A DNA stretch of 64,000 nucleotides from Bryoerythrophyllum caledonicum (lineage: Eukaryota; Streptophyta; Bryopsida; Pottiales; Pottiaceae): positions 9,317,519 to 9,381,518 of the forward strand of contig OZ020521.1 in NCBI GenBank assembly GCA_963971425.1, in the 5' to 3' direction. Both the position numbers and the translations under genes were made by a program. Positions within the stretch are counted from its first letter, which is position 1, and each line of letters opens with the position of its first letter. Positions 8,137 through 56,110 of the stretch are shown in pieces. Under the pieces are notes generated by a model. The model saw only the letters and a list, made by a program, of their open reading frames with translations. It made no database searches and was not told the origin of the DNA.

Positions 8137-9168
8137 CCCTTAATCCTTTATCGCCCTGGAAGCCCAAAATGTGACTCTGGAGGTGCTAAAACTCAATTTG
8201 CATGATATCCATGAGGAGCTAGGCTTTGAGATACGAGGTTCAGATTTGCACACTCATTACACGAACACTCTCCAACAATCAAATCATGTATTTGGATTTA
8301 TAGAACTCTTGGAAAAGCTAGGAATACAACACAAAATACACCAAATACGCTAAAATACAGTGAATATAGTGTATACTATGCCACATACTATGTTGTATTT
8401 CACACACATGCACATTGATTTTGGTCTTAAATTTTGATTGAACTTCGTCTTTAAGACATTCTTCATTGTTTTGTGATTGTTGTTCTCTCTCTTCACATAG
8501 GAAACTTCCGTTTTGATTTGTATGAGGTTGGAACAATTTTGTATCCAATCAAGTAGGAAAAAGCAATAAAATCACCAATAATTGTGCATTAATATTTTCT
8601 TCACATATGATATGTCAATGCGAAGCTATCAACCTAGTGCACATGTGAACCGCTCTTATTTGAAGTAAAAAAAATCCTCGCAAGAATCTATTGATGGTTA
8701 AAGTAGTACACCCTCCAAAATCCACAATTTTCACTACCAATATACGGTAGCTTTAAACACTGTAATCTATTCCATCAACCGTTGGTTGTTGTGCAAATTT
8801 TCCCCAAAGTTGAGGTCATGGGTTAAGTTCAACTTTGTAAGGTTAGATATTAATATTAGGCATTGTATTTCCATCAAATCTGGTTCAAAGAAAAAAATCA
8901 GAGGAAATCTTAGTTTTTCCATAAACATCCGTGGGTGGTAAAGGGTTAAACGTCATAAGGTGCCACTGGTGGCCACAATATCCTGCATGTATGGTGTCGT
9001 ATTTGAACATTAAAATGTTGAGACAATGAAACAATCTTCAAGGAAAAGATGTTAATGAAGAGTTTTCATTCCAAAGGTGTAAGTCTTGCTAAAGTATGAT
9101 ACATTTTTTTGTAACCTATAGAGTAAAATAGGCGCCTGTATATATGGTTCCCAACTGACTTTTAAGGG
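8137..9168 (+). mobile_element. Family A element, copy 1, split by a family D insertion
   Basis: The left end CCC plus TTAA (8137-8143) is separated from the remainder (TTAAACGTCATAAGG..., from 8946) by the 802-bp element at 8144-8945. Removing that insert restores the standard family A start CCCTTAAACGTCA. The right end is CTTTTAAGGG at 9168, followed by TTAA. The interior GGTGCCACTGGTGGCCACAATAT and the CCAAAGGTGTAAGTCTTGCTAAA phrase are shared by all family A copies. Confidence 0.75.
8144..8945 (+). mobile_element. Family D element, copy 1 (802 bp)
   Basis: It starts TCCTTTATCGCCC and ends GGGTGGTAAAGGG. Perfect TTAA duplications flank it (8140-8143 and 8946-8949), and the target is the TTAA inside the terminal repeat of the family A copy. 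Inverted relatives lie at 15505-16288 and 25131-25932. No coding frame longer than about 75 codons. Confidence 0.8.
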
Positions 9169-9172
9169 TTAA

Positions 9173-16518: not shown

Positions 16519-16747
16519 TAACCTCTAAACGTCAAAAGGTGCCACTCGTGGCTACAATATTCTACATGTAAAGTGTGACCGTAGTTGAACACAACAAGGT
16601 TCAGGTACTGATATGACCTCCAATCAAAGATGTTAGTGGAAGAATCTTTAATTCAAAGATGCAAGTCTTGCTCTATTGAAATACATTTTCATATATTCTA
16701 TAGAGTAAATACATGTCTACATATACGGTCGCAAATGATGTTTAACC
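16519..16747 (+). mobile_element. Family A element, copy 2
   Basis: CTCTAAACGTCAAAAGGTGCC starts the copy. It continues through the family phrases for the variable ACATGTA...GTGACC segment, AAGATGTTAGTGGAAG and CAAAGATGCAAGTCTTGCTC, and ends GATGTTTAACCTG. It is about 227 bp with both termini mutated. Confidence 0.65.
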
Positions 16748-19100
16748 TGTAAATTTTCAAGAGTGCCCTTGGAGGGCTCTTGAAGATTTGGGCAGGTTCT
16801 TACAATGTCAATTTGGAACAATATTCTTCAGATTTTCTATGATAGATGACATTATCAAAAGCTTTATATTGATACAACTTTTTCTAAATCGGACCTTTCA
16901 CCCAAAAGTTATGCCATCCTAAAACAAAACTTCTCAAGTGCGGACACGTTGGGCAACTCTAAAAATGCTTGCTATGACACTCTATTGAATGTGAGATTTT
17001 TAATACTAGCAACTAATATCATTCCTTCCACATTCCCCTAATTTTTTTTTGTCTTTAGTGAAAAATAGCATGTCAATCCAAGTCAAAACATATTCAAAAG
17101 TTGTCACACATTGTCAAGTAACGTACCAAAAAGCTTCTTCAATCCTACATAAGAAGTAGAGATTTTATAATAATTTTTACTTTTTATTTTTCCTACTACA
17201 AAATGTGGTCCAAACCTTCCTACTAACGATTTGGATTCTCATTCAAAAACATATTTAGTTCACAAAAATATATAACATGAATTGGTAATTTTGAACCTGC
17301 ACTCTTTGCACAACTTATTTGAATATGCAACACCCTTTTTCTACTTCTGAAAATTGGTATTCAAGGAACTGATATCATGCTTATCATGATGATAATTAAT
17401 TTAGACTTTATGTAGTGCAAAACTTTGACACCAAGTGAAGTCAAAGTTTGTTGATTCACTCAAAACATGCAATTAAGCAATTATGCACTTGGCCAAGTGC
17501 ATTGGTTGGTGGTAAAAAAACAACGTGTTTTTGCTCAAAACCTTTTTTTAAAATTATAAAAATTGTAAACCGTTTTGAAGTGAATTTAAATGTCTTTTGT
17601 ATTCAACATTGGCATTTTCATGTGCATATAAGTGACATGTTTTCTTTGTTTTGGTTTAAAAGACATCTTGAATGTTGTCATATGTTATTACACAAGTGAA
17701 TTTGCTATACAAAAACTAACTTGATTCTTATTCAAGATAACTTGTAAGGCGATGTGTACATTTGACTATTTCCTTTTTTGTCTAAGAAATAGATCATGGA
17801 TGCATCTATTGCAAATTGAACCGCGTAATTGCAAGGACTGTTAGAGAATTTTTACATTGTTTCCTTGAACATAATGTAGACCAAACTGGTTTGAGTTTCT
17901 ACACTACATGGAAATCAACATGCAACCATTGACTGGCACACACTTGGTTATAAATGAATATGCAATGAAAAGTTGACATGCATGTGCTTGATGTGAAGTA
18001 GTGTGGGTGATCCACATCAATAATGAATCCTCACTATACAAAGTGAATGGTATAGTGGCTAAATCTATTTGGCAATAATGAATCCTCACTATACAAAGTA
18101 GAGGCTTTGAGGGAAGCGCGTCATCGACTGTTGGAATAGATGGCTTTTGAGACATCTTGCGACATCACAAATGCCACTACAATCTAACTAATCCGAAACA
18201 CATGTCGCGGAACTGGGCGCTCGACTCATCCACTTTTGCAATACATCAGCCGTGGCTCTCCCAAATTCTGCCAATTTTTGGTGGTGCCATATTGCTACAC
18301 TCAAAAAACCTGTATATCATTACAAACCCATAGTCACTATTAGTATGGAATAAGAATTTTTGAACTTCCACTCATTGCACAATTTTTTTGAATATGCTAC
18401 ACCCCTTGTCTACCTCTAAATCCAATACCATCGTGTTAAGCATGTTCTTAGTTCTTTGGTGAAATAGCATATTAATCCAAGTCAATTATTTTCACACATT
18501 GTCACACATTTTCGGTCACGGTACCAAAAAATCATCTACCTTTCCACATAAAACTTTGAGATCTTTGTATGAATCACTTTGATTTTTCCTACGGCATTAT
18601 GTGATGTAAAACCTTCTTATTGACCATTTGGATTCTCATTTAAAACAATATCAAGTTTACAAAAAAATATAACGTGAATTGAGAATTTTTGAACCTCCAC
18701 TCATTGCACAATTTTTCTGAATATGCGACACTCCATTTCTACCTTTAAAAACTGGTGCATAAGGAACCAACAACGTGCTTAACATTATGGTAATTAATTG
18801 AGAGCTTTTATAGTGCAAAAATTAGACACCAATTGAAGTCAAACTCTGCTGGTCCAATAAACGCAGGGAAGAAAATGAGCCTACTCACTACTTCAAACAT
18901 TATAATCTTTCAATCCGTGCGGTCAAACTTCATGAAATTTTGTGAGAATAGTACTTAATAAGTCATAATTGAGATCCTACGGTTAAAACTACCAAAAAAC
19001 TTCATTTTTTCTTCCTTGCTAATTGCACAAAAACAAGCATTTTTAACGATTTTTGGTTGAGATATTTTCAACATAATTTCTGGACCAACGTACTTTGGGT
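16748..19100. repeat. Family C fragments in series, plus a 26-bp direct repeat
   Basis: Blocks with the same order as family C occur at least three times: AACCTTCTTATTGA...GGATTCTCATTTAAAA, TGAACCTCCACTCATTGCACAATTTTT, TACACCCCTTGTCTACCTCTAAA and CAATCCGTGCGGTCAAACTTCATG. Around 17904-18155 a different AT-poor piece contains AATAATGAATCCTCACTATACAAAGT twice, at 18019 and 18074. No gene is seen. Confidence 0.5.
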
Positions 19101-19264: not shown

Positions 19265-19699
19265 TTTGCAGTAGTTGTGAGGGAGGCTGTGATTGTGAGA
19301 GCCTAGGGTTTGGTAGAGGGAGACAATGGAGGTGTGAGAGAGATGGGCTTGTGAGGGCAAGAAGAGACGGGCTATGAGGGTTAGGAAAGAGGAGTTTTGA
19401 GGGAGAGGAATGGACGGAGTGTGAGAGAATGTGAAGGTGAGAGGGAGCTGGGGCGGCGTCTGAGGGTGAGAGAAGAATGTGAGGGGCGGCAGGCGTCCAC
19501 CGATCCGAGGCGTCCAGCAGCTGTGCGCGATGAGCAGGGCACGATGAGCGCGCGATGAGCGGGCGATGGGCAGCAGCTGTGCGCGATGAGCGCGCGATGG
19601 GCAGCAGCTGTGCGCGATGAGCAGCTCGCACCGATCCGAGGAGCTTGATGACGCAGAGTATACCGTGTGGGGGAAGGGTTCCTCGGGAAGTCTCCTCCG
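19265..19699. other. GC-rich block, left part
   Basis: GC-rich sequence contains repeated short phrases such as CAGCAGCTGTGCGCGATGAGC (three times at 19512-19622). The minus-strand frames here are open only because of composition and repeats. I see no protein family. Possibly the left half of a non-autonomous element. Confidence 0.45.
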
Positions 19700-20181
19700 C
19701 CGCGAACAGAAGCTGACGACCCATTAAAGGTGCGACCGCACGAGCTGCTCAATCCCCACGCCGCGAACAGAAGCTGACGACCCATGAAAGGTGCGACCGC
19801 ACGAGCTGCTCAGTCTCCACGCCGCGAACAGAAGCTGGCGACCCATGAAAGGTGCGACCGCACGAGCTGCTCAGTCCCCACGCCGTGAACAGAAGATGGC
19901 GACCCAAGAAATTTTCCCTCACGAGCTGCTCAGTCTCCACGCCGCGAACAGAAGCTGACGACCCAAGAAAGGTGCGACCGCACGAGCTGCTCAGTCCCCA
20001 CGCCGCGAACAGAAGCTGACGACCCATGAAAGGTGCGACCGCACGAGCTGCTCAGTCCCCACGCCGTGAACAGAAGTTGGCGACCCAAGAAATTTTCCCT
20101 CACGAGCTGCTCAGTTTCCACGCCGCAAACAGAAGCTGACGACCCAGGAAAGGTGCGACCGCACGAGGTGCTCATTCCCCA
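19700..20181. repeat. Minisatellite, about eight units of 60-61 bp
   Basis: The unit reads CCGCGAACAGAAGCTGACGA...GGTGCGACCGCACGAGCTGCTCAGTCCCCACG, with eight copies of 60-61 bp. Two units, near 19883 and 20064, carry ATTTTCCCTCAC in place of GGTGCGACCGCAC and also TGAACAGAAG-TGGCGACC. They are three units (181 bp) apart, so a higher-order three-unit repeat is present. The period is not a multiple of three, so minus-strand frames through it change frame with each unit and are not taken as genes. Confidence 0.9.
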
Positions 20182-21077
20182 CGGGGGCTGACGGTGTCAC
20201 CTTCGGTTGGTTTGCCTGTGTGTGTCATCGACGTCAACTTCTGAGTCGCGGTGGCCTCGGGGCAACTTCTGAGTCGCGGTGGCCTCCGGGCGACGCGACC
20301 CACTGTCTCGATTGGCGCCTGGCGAAAGCGAAGCTAGGTTGTCCTCTCAGTTGTGGGTTGCCGAGCCCAGTGTCCCGTGTGGTCATGGCTGCTGAAGTCA
20401 TGCAAACCAACCGCAGGTGAAGACCGACATCACGGAGTGGAGCGCAGCTTCATGGCGCCTTCCTGTCGACATGCACACGCCTCTCCTGTGTAGCACTCGC
20501 GCCGCCTTCCTGTCTCCTTCCTTTGCTGTAAAGCTGCGCCCCACTCCTCGTCGAGATTCCCTCCTTCGCAGAGATCTCCTTGTCTGTGTGCGAGCTCCTT
20601 AAACGCAGCTTGTCTGCGTCTGCATTGAGCTCCTTCCACGCAGCTTGTCCGTGTCTACAGCGAGCTCCTTCTCCGTGTCTTCTCCTTGTTTGCAAAGATT
20701 CCTTCACGTGGAGGAGTGCCCTCACCTCTCCTTTCCTGTGCGTGTCCAAACAGCTGCTCTTGCTTGTGCATGGTGGCACGAGAGTCCTTCTCCACAGCTC
20801 TTGCTTGTCTGCAGAGACTCAATGTTATACTCTGTACTACACTCTCTCGACAGTGTCTGGACAGGATTCCTTCTCTCCTCGACAGTGTCTCGACAAGACA
20901 TTCCTTCTCTGCAGCTCCGGTGTTTCTTCGCTCAAGAGCCTGCACTTTTCCTCTCTCACGTGTGTCCAAACAGCTACGAGGATTATCAGCTGCAGAATCC
21001 GTGTTCATAACACTTCCACTAATTGTCGTCCCAGATCTCGTTCGGATGTACTGGATGGAGGAACACTAGCATGCGGG
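20182..21077. other. GC-rich block, right part, with diffuse internal repeats
   Basis: Phrases such as GAGCTCCTT, GTCTGTGTGCGAGCTCC, GTCCAAACAGCT and ACTCTCTCGACAGTGTC recur irregularly between 20400 and 20960. Frames on both strands are open and overlapping, which is typical of repeat-rich non-coding GC sequence. None matches a family I know. Confidence 0.45.
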
Positions 21078-26535: not shown

Positions 26536-26766
26536 CCCTTAAACGTCACAACGGACCACTAGTCGTCACGATATTCTACAAACAATATATGGTGTCGTAT
26601 TTGATCATGATAAGGATCAGATTTTGAAACTACCTTCAAAAGAAATATGTTAGTTGAAGAATTTTCAAGCCAAAGGTGTAAGCTTTGTTAAGCTTTACTA
26701 CATTTTTTGTATTATACAGAGTAAAATACATGCATGTGTATACGATTCCCAATTGATGTTTAAGGG
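26536..26766 (+). mobile_element. Family A MITE, copy 3, with intact TTAA duplications
   Basis: The best-preserved copy. CCCTTAAACGTCA and TGATGTTTAAGGG are inverted ends 231 bp apart, with TTAA on both outer sides (26532-26535 and 26767-26770). The interior carries the family phrases for the ACATT...ATGGTGTCGTATTTG segment and CAAAGGTGTAAGCTTTG. No coding content. Confidence 0.85.
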
Positions 26767-27509: not shown

Positions 27510-27795
27510 CCTTTAAGCCCTAATGTCCATTTTTGGGTTGTTTGGGCACGTTAACTTTTGTAGCAAGTGTTGCATGCCACCTCCAAGAAGAAATTGAGGA
27601 AAATATTATAGGCGGAGCTAGATGAGCATTTATCGGGATTGGTGCTACTCAAATCGATGCAAGCATCGTCGAACTACGGTGATTTCCATTAAGTGGGGTT
27701 GCGATAAAATGTATTGACTGTGTAGATGATGCTCTGCATAATCTATTACACTAGTAGATTTTCTCATGCCTTGTGAGCTTGTAGGCCGTAAAGGG
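27510..27795 (+). mobile_element. Family B MITE, with intact TTAA duplications (286 bp)
   Basis: Starts CCTTTAAGCCC after TTAA (27506-27509) and ends GGCCGTAAAGGG before TTAA (27796-27799). The interior has the family phrases TGTAGCAAGTG, TGCCACCTCCAAG and GATGCAAGCATCG, and the CTGTGTAGATGATGCTCTGCAT phrase. Confidence 0.8.
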
Positions 27796-28187: not shown

Positions 28188-28410
28188 CCCTTAAACATTA
28201 AAACAACCCACTTGTGGCCACAATATTCTACATATGCGGTGTTGTATTTTGAACATGATAAAGTTCAGATACTGAAAGGACCTCCAAATGAAAGATGTTA
28301 GTTGAAGAATCTTTAATCCAAAGGTGTAAGTTGTGCTAAACTTTAATACATTTATTATATTCTACATAGTAAAATACATGCATGTATAGACCATTCCCAA
28401 CTGACATTTA
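28188..28410 (+). mobile_element. Family A MITE, first member of an inverted pair
   Basis: CCCTTAAACATTAAAAC starts the copy and CTGACATTTA ends it. The second member begins directly with CCCTTAAACATC on the opposite strand. The interior matches 26536-26766 throughout. Confidence 0.75.
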
Positions 28411-29028
28411 GCCCTTAAACATCAATTAGGAACCATACATACAAGCACTCAATTTATTGTGTAGAATATCAAAAATGTATTTAAGTTTAGCGAGACTTAC
28501 ATCTTTGGATTGAAGATTCTTCATCTCACATCTTTCATTCGGAGGTCATTTTAGGGCCAATTTACACTACGGTGGAGAAGTCCACCTGTCATGCATTTTA
28601 GAGGAATTCTGAAATTTGATTGGCCAAGAGTGACGCTCTTCTCCAATGGGGGTTTACACTATGGCCAAGAGTCCTCCGGTGGAGAACTTTGTGCATGGAT
28701 GAAAAAATGACATGGCTGCCAATGTGGCGACACTTTTTGGAGGGGAGGTTCTCTGGGGGTCAATTTTCTTCGGCGAGCTCAAAGCCTCGGACAAGAAACA
28801 TGGCCTCCGGAGAACTCCAACTTGAATAAAATATTATTTCCTTGGGAGATCTACACCATTAGATTCAAAGCCTCCCATGATCAAAACCTATTGTGGCGGC
28901 CGACTCTTCTTCTCTCATTTTGACACTCTCTCCTTTCGCTCTCTCGTCGAAGAGCTTTCTTGCTTCGTTGTGAGAGGCTGTTTGCAGATTCAAGTGTGAG
29001 AATTTTTTGTGAATTTTATTTTTGCAAG

Positions 29029-30425: not shown

Positions 30426-31838
30426 CTAGTATCTCCTGGAAATGTTATTTTTGCTTTTCTTCCTAACTGCTCCATGTAAAAAGCTTTTTGCTAACATCAA
30501 ATGAATTTGAGTAGCTTCTTTCAACATGTTTTTGATCTTTTCTTCACGGTCTCCTCTTGTTTCAACAACATTTTCTTCAGACTCTATAATATCCAAGTTA
30601 GTTGTATCATTCTCAACGAGGTCATTGAATTCTACTTGCACATCTTGATTTTGTATCTTCTTCATTTCAGCTATGCCTACTTCTAGGACATGAAATGCAT
30701 CTACATTTCTCAGATCACCGAATGATTCTAATGATGTCCTTTTCATATCTTCTACTGCATTCTTTGCCCAATTCAAATCAAATTCATCACCATGTTTGAT
30801 GCATAGGTTGTGGAGGCATAAACAAGCAGTAACAATGTCGGGAATATTTTGTAGAGGCATATCAATCCTCTTCAACAACATCCTCCATCTCCCCTTCAAG
30901 ATGCCAAATGCACGTTCGACCGCCATTGGAGTGCTTGATTGTAGAAAATTCTGGTGTTGCTTTTCTCTTGAGAGACCCGTCTTCTCTCCCTTAAAAGGTG
31001 AATAAAACCATGGACGCATTGGATATGCAGCATCTCCGATGAGTTTGTACGGAAAAAATGCTCCACTCATAGTTCTCTTTCCAGTTTCTGATTTCTGAAA
31101 TAGTGACCAATCATGTATACTTCCGGCCCAACCAAAATCATAATCCCAAAATTCGCATTGATAATCCACTACACCTTGGTGTAAAACAGAATAAAACCCC
31201 TTTCTACAGTAATATGAAGCGGGATCTATGCTTGGAGCAATAATCAGAATGTGGCTACCATCTATTGCCCCTAGAATGTATGGGATTCCATGCAAACTCT
31301 CAAATTCTGCGCCTATTTGCTTCATCCTTCCTAGTGTTGGTCTTTGAAAAACCAAGGGCCGCAACAACTTTTTAATCCCCTCACAAGTCTTTCTAACAAT
31401 AATAGAAGCACTAGGTTTTGATATACCATATAAATCTGCAAGTGTGTGCAAAGCATCACCGGAACCCAATCAATGCAATGTAATTGAAATTTGAACCTCT
31501 AATGGAATATAAGTTCTAAACTTTGTATCCTTTTTGCTCAAGAAGGGTCCAAGCAAATGACACAAATATGTAAGTGTAGGCCTACTCACCCGTAAACGGT
31601 CTTGAAAAATTCTTGCACTATATGATCCAAGAAGAAATTGTGACACATACCTAGTTGGCTGATCGAATTTCCACACCATCCTCTCTTTGCTCCCAAATAA
31701 AAAATATGCCATCATCATAATTGCAGCATTATGTTGATAATTGATGGTTTTTTGAACCGCCATAATTGAAATAATAATATACTTCAAAACCATGAAGATT
31801 GCAAGAGAAACAAGAATTTTCTCTCTTTGATTGTCCAT
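30426..31838 (-). pseudogene. Harbinger (HARBI1-like) transposase with a single nonsense codon
   Basis: The minus-strand frame from ATG 31838 runs through 122 residues, one TGA (31470-31472) and 347 further residues to 30426. That makes 470 codons, a normal length for plant PIF/Harbinger transposases. The N-terminal part has a helix-turn-helix-like segment (RVSRPTLTYLCHLLGPFL). The DDE catalytic triad is intact: Asp in GAIDGSHI (codon 193), Asp in GDAAYP (codon 269) and Glu in VERAFGILKGRWR (codon 308). The stop lies in the segment usually read as L-R-LGSGD, so a CGA-to-TGA change is likely. Otherwise no frameshift is seen, so inactivation was recent. Confidence 0.92.
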
Positions 31839-38330: not shown

Positions 38331-38871
38331 GTGAGCACGAATCCGATCGACCTGCCTCTGGGGAATATCATTCCAGACCGCGCGTCCAACCATTGCGGCT
38401 ACTTCGTGTCGGTGTTGCGTTCCATGCTCTAGCAGCTAGTCGCAAAAGTGTTTTCAACTCAAGGTGGTCACGGGGTTGTTTCTGACCGTGCAAGTGGTGA
38501 GTTTTCGGTGACTCGGAGTGTGTGGGCTATGGTGTTTGAGCGAGTCGAGTAGTGCGTACTTGTGAAACATGTGGTGAGTTTCTGGGGGTCACTGTTGTCT
38601 AGTGAGCAGGAATCCGATCGACCTCATGGTGGAACTGCTTCTGGGAGTATCATTCCAGAGCGCGCTTCCAGTCATTGCACCTACTTTGTGTCGGTGTTGC
38701 GTTCCATGCGCTAGCAGCTAGTCGCACAAGTGTTGTCAACTCAAGGTGGTCACGGGGTTGTTTCTGACCGTGCAAGTGGTGAGTTTTCGGTGACTCGGAA
38801 TATGTGGGCTATGGTGTTTGAGCGAGTCGAGTAGTGCGTACTTGTGAAACATGTGGTGAGTTTCTGGGGGT
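38331..38871 (+). repeat. Tandem duplication of about 271 bp upstream of receptor kinase A
   Basis: Two head-to-tail copies start GTGAGCA-GAATCCGATCGACCT at 38331 and 38602 and end GTGGTGAGTTTCTGGGGGT at 38589 and 38871. They are close to identical except for a short CATGGTGGAACTG insertion in the second. They lie 0.7-1.25 kb before the ATG of the receptor-kinase gene and hold no coding frame, so they may be promoter or 5' leader DNA. Confidence 0.85.
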
Positions 38872-39588: not shown

Positions 39589-42157
39589 ATGGCGACGAGA
39601 GATCATGGCCGCACCGTGTTGTTCCTTTTGCTCATCTCCTGGATCTCCATGGCGGCATGCCAAGACTTGGCAGCCGACACGAGAGCGCTCACGGCGTTCC
39701 GCGAAGAGTTCGACCCGAGCGGGAGCAAGCTGAAGTGGCGCAACACGACGTCGCCGTGCGCAGGAGGCTGGAACGGCGTGGTGTGCTTCAACAACCGCGT
39801 GAGCCAGCTGCGGTTGCCGGGCGAGGGGCTGAGCGGGGTCATTCCGTCGGGGAGCCTGAGCATGCTCTCGGAGCTTCGGGTTGTGAGCCTGCGGAATAAC
39901 AAGCTGACGGGGCCGTTTCCGGGCGAGCTCGGCAACTGTAACCACATGCATGCGTTGTATCTTGGTGGCAATGATTTCTACGGACCGGTGCCCAATCTCA
40001 CCGGCTTTTGGCCGCGCCTCACGCACCTCAGCTTGGAGTTTAACAGGTTGGTGCTAGCTCTCCCCTCGAAGAATTTCACCTATCTTGCACGTCGTTTGCT
40101 CGATGGATGGTCTGTGTCTTGCATGTCTTCTGATCGATAGGTCTACATGTCTAGTTCACTGATCTTGTAGGTCTTGCTTGAAGATTTTTCATGTGATTTA
40201 CCTATCTCGCATGTCTTTCGATCGATGGATAGTCTGTGTCTTGCATGATTTCTGATCGATAGATCTACATGTCTGGAACTGATCCCGTAGTCTTGCATGT
40301 ACGCCTCTTAATCATGGATCTGTGTCTAAATTGATGGATGGATCTCTGTCTTGCATGTCAGCTTGTATGTCTTCTGATCGATCGAACCATGTTCTTTCAG
40401 GTTTAACGGCACCATCCCGGACTCAATCGGCCTGTTCTCGCACCTCTACTTGCTAGACCTTCGCAACAACTCCTTCTCGGGCGGTATCCCACCGTTCCAA
40501 ATGCAAAACCTGACGTTCCTGAACGTGGCCAACAACAACTTGTCCGGCGCAGTGCCGCAAACCCTCACAAGGTTCGGCGCCGTAGTCTTCCGCGGCAACC
40601 CGGAGCTTTGCGGCTTCCCTCTCGATTCCGTCTGCCCATCCCCTCTTCTCGCGCCGACCCCAGCCCCATCTCCGGAGCCGCAGCAGCAGGGCGCAGCACC
40701 AGCAGCTTCGAGCAGCAGCTCCAAGCTGCTGTCCTCCGCCGCCATCACCGCCATCATCGTGGGCGGGGTGGCCCTCCTGGTACTGCTCACCATCGGGCTC
40801 CTGCTCTGCTTCTGGAAGCGCATCCGAGGCGCCGTGCAAGGTCCCACTCCGAAGACGCGTGAGAAGGGGACCGCGGAGGAGCACGGGGAAGAATACTCGA
40901 GCTCGGTCGCAGGCGAGCTCGAGCGCAACAACAAGCTTGTCTTTTTCGAGGGCAGGCGATTCTCCTTCGACCTGGAGGATCTGTTGCGGGCTTCCGCGGA
41001 GGTGCTGGGCAAGGGCAGCGTGGGGACGGCGTACAAGGCGGTTCTGGAAGACGGCACCGTCCTCGCCGTGAAGCGCTTGAAGGACGTGACCACCGGGAGA
41101 AAGGAGTTCGAGACGCAGATCGAAGTGGTCGGGAAGCTGCAGCACCGGAATCTCGTGCCGCTCAGAGCTTACTACTTCTCCAAAGACGAGAAGCTCTTGG
41201 TGTACGACTACATGCCCATGGGCAGCCTCTCAGCTCTCCTCCATGGTGAGTGATTCAACTGCTCGCTCTTCAATCACTAAGTGTTTGTTCAAGTGATTTC
41301 ATCCCTTTTGGTTGTGTTTTTTCCTTCAGGTAATCGAGGTAGCACGCGGACGCCACTTGATTGGGTGAGCAGGGTGAAGATTGCACTGGGAGCGGCACGA
41401 GGGTTGACATACCTGCACACTCAAGGCGGACCCAGATTCGTGCACGGAAACATCAAATCCTCCAACATCCTGCTCAACCGAGAACTGGAGGCTTGCATCT
41501 CCGACTTCGGACTAGCGCAGCTCCTCAGCTCCACGGCCGCGGCGTCCAGGATCGTCGGATACCGCGCGCCCGAAATCACGCAGACTCGTAAAGTGCTCAC
41601 ACAGAAGTCGGATGTCTACAGCTTCGGAGTGGTACGTGTAGAGTTTCTCACGAAGTCTTTCAGATGACTTGGGGCGATGTGTAACGATGACGCTGTTTCG
41701 GTGGTTTCCGCAGCTGCTTCTGGAGCTTCTGACAGGGAAGGCGCCCAACCAGGTCTCGCTCAACGACGAGGGCATCGACCTGCCCAAGTGGGTGCAGTCC
41801 GTGGTGCGCGAGGAGTGGACGGCGGAGGTGTTCGATCTGGAGCTGATGCGGTACCAGAACATCGAGGAGGAGATGGTGGCCATGCTGCAGGTGGCCATGC
41901 AGTGCGTGGACGCGGTGGCCGAGCGCCGGCCCGCCATGAGCGACGTGCTGCCGCTGCTAGAGGACGTGCACCCCTTCTCCTCCGACGAGGCGACCTCGCG
42001 CCAGTCCGAGAGTGTCTCGGAGGACAAGGACCCCAAGGCCGACAAGGACTCCCAGGAGAACACCCCGTCGCACAACCCCACGCCCTCGGTGCCCACCTCC
42101 TCTCACGGCTCGCATGAGCCGGGTTCTAGTGACAATGCTGCTGCTGCGTCGACGTAG
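39589..42157 (+). CDS. LRR receptor-like pseudokinase A (LRR-III, RKL1/RLK902-like)
   Basis: Exons 39589-40046, 40401-41245, 41330-41631 and 41714-42157 join in frame at GT-AG sites to give 682 residues, normal for the family. It has a signal peptide (1-25), an LRR N-cap ([12 protein letters not shown]...W...C), about five LRRs (to 216), a Pro/Ser-rich linker and a transmembrane helix (266-291). The cytoplasmic kinase domain starts at GKGSVG (356-361). The ATP-site Lys (AVKRLK, Lys377) and DFG (493-495) are present, but HRD reads HGN (473-475). With the catalytic Asp missing it is probably a signalling scaffold at the plasma membrane. The family is known for atypical kinases in hormone, defence and development signalling. 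The C-tail (from about 620) is Ser/Pro/Glu-rich. It lies in tandem with the paralogue at 51430. Confidence 0.93.
40047..40400 (+). repeat. Intron 1 of receptor kinase A with an internal duplication
   Basis: The intron is 354 bp, against 125 bp in the paralogue. ACCTATCTTGCACGTC...TCTACATGTCTAG (40078-40153) is repeated as ACCTATCTCGCATGTC...TCTACATGTCTGG (40200-40275), period 122. The extra length comes largely from this duplication. Confidence 0.8.
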
Positions 42158-47853: not shown

Positions 47854-49004
47854 CCCCTATAGGCCCAAGGCATTTTCCCTCAAGAAACACTACAAAAGTG
47901 CCATTATCAGAAAGTGGCAAAAAAAATATAATTTTGAAGTAAACTTTTTAAACTTTTGATGGTAAGATCTTAAATCATACTCCTATATGAACTTCCCAAA
48001 GTTTTTTGGCTACAATCCAATGCACTGATACGAGGATTATAGCATTTGAAGTCAAAAAAATGGTTCATTTTTCCCCTACGTTGAGTGAATCAACAGACTT
48101 GGACTTCACTTGGTGTCTAATTTTTGCACTACACAAGGTTTGAATCTCTTAGCATTGTGGTAACCTTTAAACGCCACTCGGGAACCGTATGAACATGCAC
48201 ATATTTTATTCTGTAGAATACAAAAAATGTGTAAATGTTTGGCAAGACTTACACCTTTGGATTGAAGATTCTTCAACTAACATCTTTCATTTGGAGGTCA
48301 TTTCAATATCTCAACCTTATCATGTTCAAATACGACACCATACATGTGGAATATTGTAGCTACCAGTGGCACCTTCTAATGTTTAGGGGTTAAGCATGAT
48401 GTAAGTTCCTTATACACTAATTTTTAGAGGTAGAGAAAGGGTGTAGCACATTCAAAACAAGTATGCAAGGAGTAGAGGTTCAAAAATTGCTAGTTCACGT
48501 TTTATTTTTTTGTGAACTTAATTGGTTTAAAAATGATAATCCAAACGGTCAATATATTTTTTTTACAACATATTTTTGTCAAAAATCAAAATGTGAAAAA
48601 TATGAAGATCTCTAGGTTTTATGTAGAAAAGAGAAGTTATATTGGTTCCTTGCCTAACAATGTGTGAAAATGTTTGACTTGGGTTAAATAAATTCTTACA
48701 TTATAGAGAAGATTTTTTAATTTTTGACATCTTCAAGAAAGACAATATTGTATATATGTATGAAAAATCTCAATGACAATAGAAACTTCTAGCAATAATT
48801 TTGGAGCTGCTCGGAGTCCCCATTTTCATATTTGAATGGTACTAACTTTCAAACCATGAATTCACCAAAAAAACCACCTCCACAAAGCTCTTATCAAGGA
48901 CAATATAGTTTAAAGATTTCATGTTTTTAAATTAAAAAAATAAAAATTAGGAACCTGCCCAAAATCAAAATTATTACTCCAAGGGGAAATTGTCCTTTTA
49001 GGGA
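47854..49004 (-). mobile_element. Family C element, inverted, with a nested family A MITE
   Basis: Begins CCCCTATAGGCCCAAGGC after TTAA and ends GTCCTTTTAGGGATTAA. The interior reads as the inverse of 7216-8132 (for example TTAGAGGTAGAGAAAGGGTGTAGCAC). The family A copy at 48164-48389 interrupts it at a site that is uninterrupted in four other C copies. Confidence 0.65.
48164..48389 (-). mobile_element. Family A MITE nested in family C (226 bp)
   Basis: CCTTTAAACGCCACTCGGGAACC to TCTAATGTTTAGGGG, flanked by GTAA (48160-48163) and TTAA (48390-48393). Related C sequences at 18778, 55068 and 55398 carry a single ATGTTAAGCA-G or ATTAAGCACG at this position. The target was therefore a TTAA and was duplicated on insertion. 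Confidence 0.85.
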
Positions 49005-49008
49005 TTAA

Positions 49009-49304
49009 CCCTTTAAGGTCAAACAACCATATATGGGTCGTTTTGGCACAAGAACCTTTCTAGCAAGTGCTACAAGCCACCTTGAAGGAAAAAATAGACC
49101 ATCACTTAGAGGTGGAAGAAGATGGGCATCGATTGAGACCATCGCCACGACAATCGGTGCAAGCACCAGCAAGCTACAATGATTTTTGTGAAGTGAGTTC
49201 ATAGATCTTTGTGCTAAATGTGCCTAATGCATAGATGTCATTACGCATGATCTAGAACACTTGTAGATTCTCATAGACCAAAAAAACTCATCAGCCTTAA
49301 AGGG
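49009..49304 (+). mobile_element. Family B MITE, first of two in tandem (296 bp)
   Basis: CCCTTTAAGGTCAAACAACC to CATCAGCCTTAAAGGG with TTAA on both sides (49005-49008, 49305-49308). Interior standard. Confidence 0.8.
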
Positions 49305-49602
49305 TTAAGGCCTAAGAACCACATATGGATCGTTTTGGCACAAGAACCTTTGTACCAAGCGCTAGAGGCCACCTCAAATGAAAAAAATACACCATGATTA
49401 AGAGGTGGAGGAAGATGGGCATCTATTGAGACCATCACCCTGACAATCACTGCAAGCATTAGCAAATTACAGTAATTTCCATGAAGTGGAATCTAAGATT
49501 ATTTTGCTGAAATGTACCGTGTGTGTAGATTCCGTTCTACGTGATCTAGAACAATCATTGATTCTCTCCGGCTAGAATACCTCATCGGCCTTAAAGGGTT
49601 AA
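49305..49602 (+). mobile_element. Family B MITE, second of two in tandem
   Basis: TTAAGGCCTAAGAACCACATATGG begins directly at the TTAA that ends the previous copy, and its own CCC is missing. It ends CATCGGCCTTAAAGGG before TTAA. It is followed by GGAGCTTAAGGGGTTAA, which looks like the right end of yet another TTAA element. Confidence 0.75.
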
Positions 49603-50061
49603 GGAGCTTAAGGGGTTAATTCAAAAGGTGCCACTTCCTCGGTTTGTGGGCGGTGTTGCCTAGGTTGGAGGTCCGGGTATTCTAAATTCCCCGGTATTCT
49701 CAATTTGGATATACATATACTCGGTTAAAAATTTGTAGTTGATGGAAATTTGTTGGTACAAGGAGAAGTTAGAACTACATTGTCCTCAACCCCATAAGGA
49801 TTAGGTTTGGGTATTTTTGGGACGAGCCCTGCTGTTATTAAAAAGCTGATGGCCAGGAAGGTGGTGGCTTTTTTATGTGATTGAACAAGAGAGTTTAAAT
49901 AAGAGCCTTGGATGGTGGGCTTGGCCCAGAAGACCTTTAGTAGATATGGGTTCTGTCATGTCAACGTGAAGGTCGCGCCAACTGCCAGCTCGACTGATAC
50001 CCGTAAATACCACTTCAATACCCTCACCATATCCGGGAGATACACAGACCTCATATCCCAT
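49603..50061. other. Unassigned sequence
   Basis: A GC-richer piece at 49900-50050 includes CCAACTGCCAGCTCGACTGATACC, and a related GGCCAACTGCCAGCC occurs at 50423. No gene is recognised. Confidence 0.35.
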
Positions 50062-50308
50062 GAGTAAAATACGTGCCTATATGTACAGTTCCCAACCGAC
50101 GTTTAAGGGCTAACCCTTAAAAGTCAATTGGAAACCATATATATCGGCACATATCCTACTCTGCAGAATACAACAAAATGTATCAAAGTCAGGCAAGACT
50201 TACACCTTTGGATTGAAGATTCTTCAACTGCCATCTTTCATGTGGAGGTCATTTCAATATGTGAACCTTATCATGTTCAAATATGACACCATACATGTAG
50301 AATACTTT
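50062..50308. mobile_element. Family A inverted pair, both members truncated
   Basis: 50062-50110 is the right end of a plus-strand copy (GAGTAAAATACGTGCC...CCGACGTTTAAGGG). It joins through CTAA to an inverted copy, CCCTTAAAAGTCAATTGG...CATACATGTAGAATA, that stops about 50 bp short. The same tail-to-tail layout is seen at 28188-28553. Confidence 0.75.
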
Positions 50309-51429: not shown

Positions 51430-53717
51430 ATGGCGACGATATGGAATTCTCCCCGGGCGTTGAGCACGCTCTTGTTCGTGCTCTTCACCATGGTTTCAGC
51501 GCAAGACCTAGCAGCCGACACGAAGGCGCTGCTCAAGTTCAGCATCGTCCACGACCCGAAGACCACCAAACTGGGGTGGAGCAACATAACCTCGACGTGC
51601 ACCTGGCGCGGCATCACCTGCGAGGGAGGGCGAGTCACGGAGCTCAGGTTGCCGGGGAAGGGGTTCCGGGGCGAGATCCCTCAGGGAAGCCTGGGCCTGC
51701 TCACGGAGCTTCGTGTGGTCAGCTTGCGAGGCAACAAGCTCACGGGCCTGTTTCCGGGCGAACTCGGCGACTGCAACAAGCTCCAGGCGTTGTATCTGGC
51801 GAGGAACGATTTCTACGGGCCTATCTTGACGCTCACCGGGCTGTGGCCGCGCCTCACCCGCCTCAGCTTGGATTTTAATTTGTGAGCATTCCCATGCTCC
51901 CTCAGCTTTGATGCCAAGCACGTGTGTAGCAGCAATGGCTCCGTTCCTGAGAGTTCTTCTCCATCCATGCAGCTTCCATTCCTGATAGTTTTCTCTTTCC
52001 GTGCAGGATCAATGGCTCAATTCCAGAATCGCTCGGGCTCTTCAAGGAGCTCTACTACCTTAACCTTCGCAACAACTCGTTCTCGGGCACTATCCCGGCG
52101 CTCGACCTCGCGAATCTCACCATCCTCGACGTCGCGAACAACAACCTCACGGGCGCCATCCCGCCGTCGCTCTCGAGGTTCCTCCCCGCAGCTTTCCTCG
52201 GCAACCCGGGCCTGTGCGGCGCGCCTCTGGCCGCCTGTCCGGGCACTCTTCAACCAACGTCATCGCCCGCCCCAACAACAACGTATTCGAAGAAGACGTC
52301 CCTCTCAACAGGGGCGATCGTGGGGATTGTCGTGGGATCCGTCGCGGTACTGGGTCTCCTTCTCCTCGTATTATTTTTCTGCGTTTTTCGGAGGAGGAAG
52401 GAGAAGTCGACGGAGGAGACTGCGAAGCCGGACTTGGGAGAAGTTGCGGTGAGAGGACGCGACAAGGAGCTGGCGGCGCCGATGACCGAGGAGTACTACA
52501 GCGCGTCGGGCGAGAAGCTGGACCGCAGAAAGCTCGTGTTCTTCGACAGTAAGAAATACTCGTTCGATTTGGATGACCTGCTGCGCGCCTCGGCCGAGGT
52601 GCTGGGCAAGGGCAGCGTGGGGACGGCGTACAAGGCCATCCTGGAAGACGGCACCATCATGGCCGTGAAGCGCCTCAAGGACGTGATGACGGGCAAGAAG
52701 GAGTTCGAGGCGCAGATTCAGGTCGTCGGCAAGATGCAGAACCGCAACGTGGTGCCGCTGCGCGCGTACTACTTCTCCAAGGACGAGAAGCTCCTCGTGT
52801 ACGACTTCATGAACCGCGGCAGCCTCTCCGCGCTTCTCCACGGTAAGGGAACTTTAGATGCCTCTCCACGTTGCTTTTTTTTTGTTAGCATAGCGAGTTT
52901 GAGTGCGTTCTGATGGACCGTTCGTTGTTATTTTCAGGAAACCGAGGCAGCACTCGCATTCCCCTCGACTGGGCCTCGCGTGTCAAGATCGCCACCGGAG
53001 CCGCACGAGGACTTGCGTATCTGCACGCACAAGGCGGACCCAATTTCGTGCACGCCAACATCAAGTCGTCCAACGTGCTGCTCAACTCGGACCTGAACGC
53101 GTGCATCTCGGACTTCGGTATGGCGCAGCTGCTGACCTCGTCGTCCGCGCAGGCGAAGATCGTCGGGTACCGCGCGCCCGAGGTCACGGAGTTGCAGAAG
53201 GTGACGCAGAAGTCGGACGTCTTCAGCTTCGGAGTGGTACGTACTAGTCCCTGATCTAGACGCCGGCCTCAGTCAGTCCGTTCAACAGGTTTGCTGATCG
53301 ATCATCTTGGTTGACTGTTTGCAGCTGCTTCTGGAGCTTCTGACTGGAAAATCCCCGACGCAAGCGGCGCTGAGCGACGAGGGCATGGACCTGCCGCGCT
53401 GGGTGCAGTCCATCGTGCGTGAGGAGTGGACCACCGAGGTGTTCGACCCGGAGCTCCTGCGCTACAACACCGTGGAGGGCGAGATGGTGAACCTGCTGCA
53501 GATCGCGATGCGGTGCGTGGCGGTGGACCCGCAGGAACGCCCCACCATGAGCCAGGTCCAGCACCTGCTGGAAGACGTGCGCCAGTTGTCCCTCCACAGC
53601 AGCCAGGAAATCAAGTCCGGATCCGCCGGCAGCCCGCCCGAAGACTCACCACCCACGCACCTGAACGTATCGTCGTCGCTCGCACCGCCAGGCTCGCACT
53701 CACGCACCACTCCTTAG
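51430..53717 (+). CDS. LRR receptor-like pseudokinase B (tandem paralogue)
   Basis: Exons 51430-51881, 52007-52842, 52938-53236 and 53325-53717 join in frame and give 659 residues. Intron positions and phases equal those of the gene at 39589. It has a signal peptide (1-24), an LRR N-cap with CTWRGITC, about five LRRs, a Pro/Thr linker and a transmembrane helix (about 253-277, then RRRK). The kinase domain has GKGSVG (351-356), the ATP-site Lys in MAVKRLK (Lys372) and DFG (488-490). HRD reads HAN (468-470), so it too lacks the catalytic Asp and is probably a pseudokinase scaffold at the plasma membrane. The C-tail ([13 protein letters not shown]...) is short and Ser/Pro-rich. The start is set by the signal peptide and by CGAGATGGCGACGA, shared with paralogue A. 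Confidence 0.93.
51882..52006 (+). other. Intron 1 of receptor kinase B with a duplicated acceptor region
   Basis: GTTCCTGAGAGTTCTTCTCCATCCATGCAG and ATTCCTGATAGTTTTCTCTTTCCGTGCAG are imperfect copies, each ending in a usable CAG (51972 and 52006). Only the second keeps the reading frame; the first would add 34 nt and shift it. Confidence 0.7.
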
Positions 53718-54410: not shown

Positions 54411-56110
54411 AAAGTGCTTCCTGAAGGGGCAAGTCAGGAGGAATATGGTGCCAGACAGTATGAGATGTATAAACAGCAAAAAAGAGAGCATGAGGAAATT
54501 TCATATCGCCTTTTTTTGCACCAATGAAATGCTTTGCAATTAATGTTCTTGGGCCCTACCCCATGCAAGCTAAAGTTCCCCCATAGTACCCTGAGTTCTC
54601 AAAGGGTTGACCAATAGTTCCCCCAAACCTTTCCCAAGCCAAGACACCATGTGCATGTTGTCCCGGTTACTAACACAAGACCTTAAGATTCGGGGTACCT
54701 ATCCAATGTATTTTGGTGACTTTCAGGAAAACTCTAATATCTGACTCCTTTTTTGCCAGCACCAACATTAATAGCACTACATTGTTGTACCATATTGACC
54801 CTTTTACAACTTCACACCAAAAACACTCTAAAATTGCTCATTCTAGGGTAATGAGAAAGGAAAACTTTGATTTCCAATTTTTAACCGTAGGATCTCAATT
54901 TAGACTTATTGACTAATATACTCATAAGATTTGACCGCACATATTGAAAGATTAGAGTGTCTGAAGTAAGGAAAAGTGTTCATTTTCTTCCCTGCGTTGA
55001 GTGAATCAAAAGACTTTGACTTCACCTAGTGTCAAATTTTTGCACTATAGAAGGTCTAAACTTGTTATCATCATATTAAGCACGATTTTAGTTCCTTGTA
55101 TCCCAATTTTTAAAGGTAAAGAAACTTTGACTTCACCTTGGTAGATAAACAAACTTTTGACTTCAAAAGTGTTGATTCTAGTGCAATGAATGAGGAAGGA
55201 AATGAAGACTTTTATTTCCCAATTTCAACCGTGGGATCCTGTTTAAGACCTATTAACTAATATATTCACAAAATTTCATAAACTTTGAAGTAGAGAAAAG
55301 GGTTCATTTTCTTCTCTGAGAGTAGTTGATCACCAAACTTTGAGTTCACTTGGTGTCATTTTTGTGCACCACACAAGGTCTAAATTCATTACCATCATGT
55401 TAAGCATGATATTACTTCTTTGTATACCATTTTTTAGAGGTAGAAAAGGGGTGTAGCCTATTCAAAACAATTATGCAAGGAGTGGAGGTTACAAAATTGC
55501 CCATTGACGCTATATTGTGTTGTGAACTTAATATGTTTTAGAATGATATCCAAATAGTCAATAAGACAATGCGTAATAATGTGTTAAACGTTTGACTTAG
55601 ATTAACCCTTAAATTCCCAAGAGTCTCTACGGAATTTTTTTGAAGGTTTTGGCATGTTCTTATATTGTCAATTTATAAAATTCCTTTTTGAAAATGCTGT
55701 AGATGGACTTCCACAAAGCTTTTCTAAAATTTTGTACTTCCACAAAGCTTTTCTTAAATTTGACATTTGACAATAAAATTATGCAACCCAAAATAGTTTT
55801 TTAGAGAGGGCGGATAGGGCAGAGATACTTGAAACACACATAACAATTTACATAAAGTGGTGTGAGAGTGGAGAGCCCTAAACACTTTCTTGTTGTCCTT
55901 CATGACTTCTTCATTCAAACAAAACATGTACTCCATGAGAGAGCTCCAATGCATTTTGGATTCCTCAATGTACTACAATCTAACCTCTTTAATACGACAC
56001 TTGATTATACGACAACCTCAATAATATCACACATTTTTGCACGACCAAATTTTAATAGTCTTAAACTCCTTCTATAATACAATTATAACATTCGATATTT
56101 GGACACTTTG
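54411..56110. repeat. Mosaic of family E and family C fragments
   Basis: 54430-54720 repeats the GCACCAATGAAATGC...CTTGGGCCCTACC...CCCAAGCC block. 54880-55520 holds three successive pieces of inverted family C (TTGACTTCAC-TGGTGTCA, GTTAAGCATGAT, TAGAGGTAGAAAAGGGGTGTAGC). 55600 (TTAACCCTTAAATTCCCAAGAG) looks like a further TTAA element start. 55713-55760 has the duplicated phrase ACTTCCACAAAGCTTTTCT. No genes. Confidence 0.5.

Follow-up and report, generated by a model that had tools for sequence, protein, structure and literature searches.

Transposons of the piggyBac superfamily are best known from animals, and a TTAA target is a trait of the animal piggyBac MITE class. Plant MITEs are characterised by their size, their abundance and their nesting. 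Animal piggyBac MITEs include mPok of Daphnia (PMC4912750) and the coral MITEs (PMC2872659). For plants, the accessible parts of three papers mention piggyBac elements in general terms (PMC8086355, PMC10813416, PMC10140906), and the repeat table of the C-fern, in the part of that paper available, has 1,230 entries under PiggyBac (PMC6890710). A 2025 MITE survey that covered 207 plant genomes, four being from bryophytes, distinguishes five superfamilies plus one special group, and neither piggyBac nor TTAA occurs in its main text (PMC12550479). The same two words are absent from a study of transcribed transposons in P. patens (PMC7466625). Among the matches listed in a literature search that lay mostly outside the subscription journals, no title or abstract start dealt with piggyBac MITEs of mosses. 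An earlier note on the DNA treated here had remarked that reports of piggyBac-like MITEs from land plants are uncommon, and this fits the literature examined, within its scope.

The window, which is the whole 64-kb stretch of DNA that was analysed, comes from what is probably a moss (see below), and a same-source assembly of 437 Mb in 894 contigs was used for the genome-wide searches. The element at the centre of the analysis is a non-coding family A MITE of 226 bp at 48164-48389 (+), delimited from the window letters and by self-BLAST. Its ends are CCTTTAAACGCCAC ... CTAATGTTTAGGGG, and the majority end of the family is CCCTTAAACGTCAG on both sides. The window letters agree with the earlier description of this copy as lying between GTAA and TTAA: the left copy of the target duplication is GTAA (48160-48163), one base off TTAA, and the right copy is TTAA (48390-48393). 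The element hit by this insertion belongs to family C and occupies 47854-49004 (+; the borders are approximate, the right one being set by eye). Without the family A copy it is about 920 bp long, and its left end reads TTAA followed by CCCCTATAGG. In the self-BLAST the alignments of the C flanks with further C copies run as far as 48155-48163 and resume at 48389, which shows that the family A copy interrupts family C. No transposase relic was found in the window by tblastn at an E-value of 0.01 with three queries, one of them an N-terminal part only; family A is short, non-autonomous and without a transposase. An Rfam scan of the window gave no match at gathering scores.

Window letters and self-BLAST further identify an empty target site in three other C copies, at 18770-18790, 55060-55080 and 55390-55410. 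These are the copies near 18778, 55068 and 55398 that had been claimed to be uninterrupted, and each indeed has TTAA at the homologous place, the one near 18778 on the other strand. For the genome, a query was built in which both C flanks were joined over a single TTAA and the A element left out. It gave 5,522 first-look candidates, 40 of which were scored, and the junction was spanned in all 40. Exact TTAA stands at the empty site in 25 of the 30 C copies that were fetched from these 40 and aligned, the remaining five having TTGA (two copies), TCAA, TTTA or a one-base gap, and no gap difference of more than 20 bases is found among the 30. These empty sites are paralogous copies of a repeat, not the same locus in another individual, and are compatible with sites that were never occupied. 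The locus had been put forward as an empty-site proof; the argument is strong for the single window site; it is the genome-wide data that carry the case.

More family A copies are found in the window. One at 26536-26766 (-) has exact TTAA on both sides (window letters, self-BLAST), and one at 8947-9168 (-) has TTAA at 9169. The copy at 50114-50304 (+) is partial and comprises the left part; this copy and the one at 8947-9168 come from the window comparison. The self-comparison gave a diverged copy at 16522-16745 (-) and a copy at 28188-28410 (-). Directly next to the latter, at 28412-28551, is part of another A copy that points the other way.

A profile search of the genome with the DDE_Tnp_1_7 catalytic domain (PF13843) gave 120 matches, all over the curated cut-off and the best with an E-value of 6e-81; some genes are counted here in two pieces, and large contigs may be duplicated by some of the small ones. 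PF13843 had no match in 14 control genomes, which are not a set of plants chosen for this comparison. Two transposases, one from each of two lineages, were compared with known structures. The C384 transposase (P0003) and the L012-type transposase (P0004) contain the catalytic domain with E-values of 1.3e-79 and 2e-81, respectively. Using phmmer, they match PDB 6x67, an entry named Transposase that we take to be T. ni piggyBac, at 5e-30 and 1e-28, and piggyBat (PDB 9c0f) at 3e-25 and 1.5e-24. In both proteins three catalytic aspartates are aligned to those of 6x67, two of which presumably are D346 and D447 of T. ni piggyBac. The other, D268, is named as a catalytic aspartate of that enzyme in the accessible part of its description (PMC9499001). 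The motifs DEMM, DNFFTS and GVD..DQ are present in all of five frames examined, which were picked by DNFFTS and of which two (L059 and L012) are 98% identical. The 955-codon frame of the C11 element holds all three catalytic-aspartate motifs. The five frames also have a Cys-rich C-terminal region with 6-9 cysteines in the last 80 residues; Pfam zinc-ribbon profiles gave no match over the cut-off in the two transposases tested.

The transposases fall into a C384/C11/C9 group and an L059/L012 group that are 36-40% identical to each other. The open frame continues for about 330-460 residues before the catalytic domain, the start codon not being fixed; T. ni piggyBac, by comparison, has about 100 disordered residues there (PMC9499001). 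Pfam gave no match for the 328-440 residues before the domain in the three transposases tested (L060, L084 and L012). When the long N-terminal region and the domain are taken together, the C384 and C11 proteins are 58% identical over 725 columns. The N-terminal part of C11, used as a query, finds nine further places at 84-95%, one of which has a separate second piece at 81%, besides weaker matches at 34-52%. Copies of the L059 type are found at six places and are 96.5-99.8% identical in long aligned stretches; three of these places are on small contigs and could duplicate chromosomal ones. Between the copies on C3 and C9, both large contigs, the identity is 99.2% over 3.8 kb. Judged from these identities, one transposase family looks recent.

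Several of the transposase genes lie in elements whose ends can be read. The C384 element is 5,054 bp long, contains an 860-codon frame, has the ends CCCTTAAGTGCC/CCCTTAAATGCC and is flanked by AACTTAA on the left and TTAAGTT on the right. The C11 element (3,952 bp) contains the 955-codon frame mentioned above and has the ends CCCTTAAACGTCA/CCCTTAAACGACA, while an element on C9 near 3.12 Mb (4,925 bp) contains two overlapping frames and has CCCTTAAACGCCCAGG at both ends; all these frames were counted from stop to stop. Each of the three has TTAA on both sides and CCC-type ends (CCCTTAA). Two more, on C3 near 30.32 Mb and on C9 near 7.39 Mb, have TTAA adjoining CCC at both ends, with about 1 kb of the middle unread. 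In the stretches of 1.5 kb downstream of further transposases, a right end of the TTAACC type or the TAACCCCTA type was found in 7 of 20, the other 13 being without one. Near the first ten transposase loci, where the 1.5-kb flanks were too short for most, right-end motifs were found in two. The earlier note had proposed a search of the same genome for a piggyBac-type transposase with matching terminal repeats; what this search gave is complete elements that encode a DDD transposase, have TTAA on both sides and belong to the same class of terminal motif as the MITEs.

The full-length elements of this genome share a homologous catalytic core, the TTAA target, CCC-type ends and a Cys-rich tail with T. 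ni piggyBac (IFP2) and piggyBat. They differ from both in being 4-5 kb long and in having a plant as host. The L059 copy (C9 near 9.72 Mb), whose two ends match each other in inverted orientation over 30 bp, was not counted as a complete element, its right flank being TTAC and the copy containing a run of 200 N. At the C384 element a 430-codon open frame spans the right end (L060, 5162-6451), which suggests that this element landed in coding-like sequence.

Family A and the C11 element share terminal sequence. The first 13 bases of family A are identical, without interruption, to the left end of C11, and 10 to its right end; beyond the first 13-14 bases the two are not clearly alike. A terminal likeness this short is not very specific, because the left end of the family B copy described below also matches the C11 element, in 13 of 16 bases of which only five are consecutive. 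Among the elements with readable ends, the C11 type is the best candidate for a partner of family A. Kolobok and Sola3 are superfamilies that likewise use TTAA, and if one of these moved family A the CCCTTAA start that it has in common with piggyBac would be a convergence. Such an origin would agree with the fact that only about 13 terminal bases are common to A and the C11 element. It would at the same time leave to coincidence that 13 terminal bases are identical and the target the same, in a genome with abundant piggyBac transposases of the same terminal class, and we regard it as very unlikely.

The size of the target was determined from the flanks of family A across the genome, as the earlier note had recommended for its families. 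The search gave 3,919 first-look candidates, of which 40 were scored; the window copy (L058) was among them and was dropped, leaving 39. Exact TTAA is found on both sides of 13 of the 39 copies, or at 12 of 38 distinct sites when L020 and L022 are taken as the one site that they represent. With at most one flank mismatch the number is 24 (23 of 38 sites), and with at most two it is 32 (31 of 38 sites). A set of 22 clean copies was then defined by taking one copy per site, L020 being dropped in favour of L022, and keeping only CC[CT]/[GA]GG ends. Nine of these have exact TTAA on both sides. In their left flanks T is found at position -4 in 22 copies and at -3 in 15, and A at -2 in 20 and at -1 in 18; in their right flanks T is found in 21 copies at both +1 and +2, and A in 20 at +3 and in 19 at +4. 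The two positions beyond the four-base flank are mixed on either side, and conservation is therefore limited to four bases, TTAA. Family A has a 4-bp TTAA target duplication.

The exact 14-base end CCCTTAAACGTCAG occurs 802 times in the genome. It is preceded by TTAA in 537 cases, by A, C or G plus TAA in 46, and by neither in 219, while the reversed-pattern controls gave counts of 0. As background, TTAA starts at 0.5% of the window positions, and TTAA is commoner before A ends than expected by chance. The inexact flanks, with only 13 of 39 copies exact on both sides and 219 of 802 ends outside both classes, mean that decay or non-canonical targets must be invoked. The commonest deviation is TCAA at the left flank (6 of 39) and CTAA at the right (4 of 39). 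The median pairwise identity within family A is 87%, and by this measure its copies look old. The suggestion that the TTAA system is active or recent is only partly supported, by the near-identical transposase copies and not by family A.

PIF/Harbinger elements are common in plants and have TTA/TAA targets. Family A could accordingly be a Tourist-like MITE that duplicates 3 bp (TTA/TAA) and depends on a DDE_Tnp_4-like transposase for its movement, and the window does contain a PIF/Harbinger-type frame at 30426-31469 (-), which has 347 codons and matches PF13359 with an E-value of 6e-29. A TAA target would, however, leave the preceding base free, and this base is T in 537 of the 583 exact A ends preceded by TAA. 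The outer flank bases are moreover conserved on both sides, with T at -4 in all 22 clean copies, and this genome contains a piggyBac element whose ends match those of A, which together make a PIF/Harbinger origin exceedingly improbable. Family A might also be of the Tc1/mariner type (Stowaway-like), with a TA duplication, the ends ACCC...GGGT and a TTAA preference due to chance. At a single site the two readings cannot be told apart by the letters, TA plus ACCC..GGGT spelling the same as TTAA plus CCC..GGG. A mariner would need a fixed preference for TTAA, which is not a known mariner trait, and wherever such ends belong to full-length elements the encoded transposase is of the piggyBac type; we find this reading barely credible. 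The conserved fourth base was taken to rule out a PIF/Harbinger as well as a mariner origin.

Family A is very probably a non-autonomous piggyBac-type MITE, presumably mobilised at TTAA by piggyBac transposases of its genome. This assignment builds on a target of four bases (TTAA), on the sites found empty, on the terminal repeats and on complete elements in the same genome that encode a piggyBac-type transposase and belong to the same terminal class. The earlier reading of these repeats as piggyBac-type non-autonomous elements is likewise supported, by the TTAA target together with complete elements of matching terminal class. Our confidence is lowered slightly by the 219 ends that lack a flank of the TAA type and by the limited specificity of the short terminal matches. 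Mechanistically, a piggyBac-superfamily transposase from full-length elements elsewhere in the genome would bind the CCCTTAAACG.. terminal repeats and excise the family A element with TTAA overhangs; upon insertion of the element at a TTAA the four bases would be duplicated. The cutting, the TTAA overhangs and the mobilisation of A in trans are drawn from the known piggyBac mechanism.

Two further families can be assigned in a similar way. Family B is most likely another non-autonomous piggyBac-type family with its own terminal variants. A family B MITE lies at 49009-49304 (+) with TTAA at 49005-49008 and 49305-49308 and the ends CCCTTTAAGG ... CCTTAAAGGG, and it is abutted at the TTAA by a second, tandem copy at 49305-49604 (+; self-BLAST), which is 77% identical to it. 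A diverged B-like copy at 27510-27795 (+) has exact TTAA on both sides and is 69% identical to family B over 182 columns; like the copy at 49009-49304 it was defined from the window letters and self-BLAST. The elements at 26536-26766, 27510-27795 and 49009-49304 had been listed together as family A copies with TTAA on both sides. The TTAA holds for all three, but the latter two are of the B type. A genome search for family B gave 2,047 candidates, 40 of which were scored with 45 matches, and among 20 fetched copies the TTAA is exact at both flanks in 11 and has no more than one mismatch in 15. Of the elements read, none of full length has the ends of family B. Close pairs or triples of B copies, of which 49009-49604 is a head-to-tail pair, are also present on C14 near 15.05 Mb and on C2 near 11.826 Mb.

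Family C is probably also a non-autonomous piggyBac-type family with terminal variants of its own. In 14 of 30 loci TTAACCC stands 110-210 bases ahead of the matched stretch, marking the left end, and in 15 of 30 GGGTTAA stands 680-800 bases after the start of that stretch, marking the right end; nine loci have both. Control bands in the same loci gave 0-3 of 30, with the exception of GGGTTAA in one internal band (11 of 30). TTAACCC is present 28 times in the window, both strands counted, where 4.6 would be expected from trinucleotide and 8.6 from dinucleotide composition. Among the ends that were read, those of family C are closest to L078, L072 and the C9 element near 7.39 Mb, the left end of C384 being equal on one side, and the body of the family has its match in the 3' portion of the L059 locus, on C9 near 9.72 Mb. 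In 11 of the 30 family C loci (L108-L137) GGGTTAA recurs internally, 400-520 bases from where the matched stretch begins.

In being short non-coding elements beside full-length relatives, these families are like mPok and the coral MITEs, the likeness resting on the descriptions in the available parts of those sources (PMC4912750, PMC2872659). They differ from the animal piggyBac MITEs in their plant host and in their numbers, with 3,919 (A), 2,047 (B) and 5,522 (C) candidates, 40 of each being scored. Compared with the usual MITEs of plants, they are alike in size, abundance and nesting, while target and transposase differ. The superfamily is already known, and the surprise lies in the host and the abundance.

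More tentatively, and with somewhat greater doubt than assurance, it may be proposed that this probable moss lineage hosts at least two deep piggyBac lineages (about 36-40% identical) with a long N-terminal region unknown to Pfam, that at least one of them was recently amplified, as the near-identical copies and open frames would indicate, and that they and their derivatives have seeded thousands of TTAA-flanked MITEs. PiggyBac would then be a major shaper of this genome, possibly as a native TTAA system that still works. Annotation pipelines built on the usual plant MITE classes, in which piggyBac is not included, could misfile or drop such families. A piggyBac-rich plant genome widens the known range of the superfamily and makes one ask whether the elements were inherited or came by horizontal transfer. 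It could also provide a TTAA transposon with scar-free excision that is native to plants.

Complete psaB genes are found on two contigs, C821 and C894 (L081-L083). Both encoded proteins score highest against PDB 7ksq, 6l35 and 8htu, in a database with few bryophytes, and we take 7ksq and 8htu to be from the same species as 6l35, Physcomitrella patens. The entry 6l35 belongs with a paper on photosystem I of this moss, as stated in the part of it available (PMC7884438). These protein matches make a moss the probable host. As the two PsaB proteins are not the same, the assembly contains either a second plastid or a diverged copy; possibly this is a second moss. These contigs mean that some foreign or variant sequence may be present, and the piggyBac signal could on that account be animal or other contamination, but the copies and transposases are found not just on small contigs but also on large ones such as C1 (65.2 Mb) and C15 (20.1 Mb), the window elements lie among leucine-rich-repeat and kinase frames, and both PsaB proteins score best against the same moss chains, so that we give contamination next to no credence.

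Leucine-rich-repeat or protein-kinase frames account for four of the five window frames tested. Two similar gene regions with leucine-rich repeats and a protein kinase, at 39589-41253 and 51430-52913 (+), lie about 11 kb apart and are likely paralogous receptor-like kinases. The window also contains two tandem arrays, one at 19698-20183 in which a 61-bp unit is repeated about 8 times, and one at 38352-38871 with a 282-bp unit present about 1.8 times.
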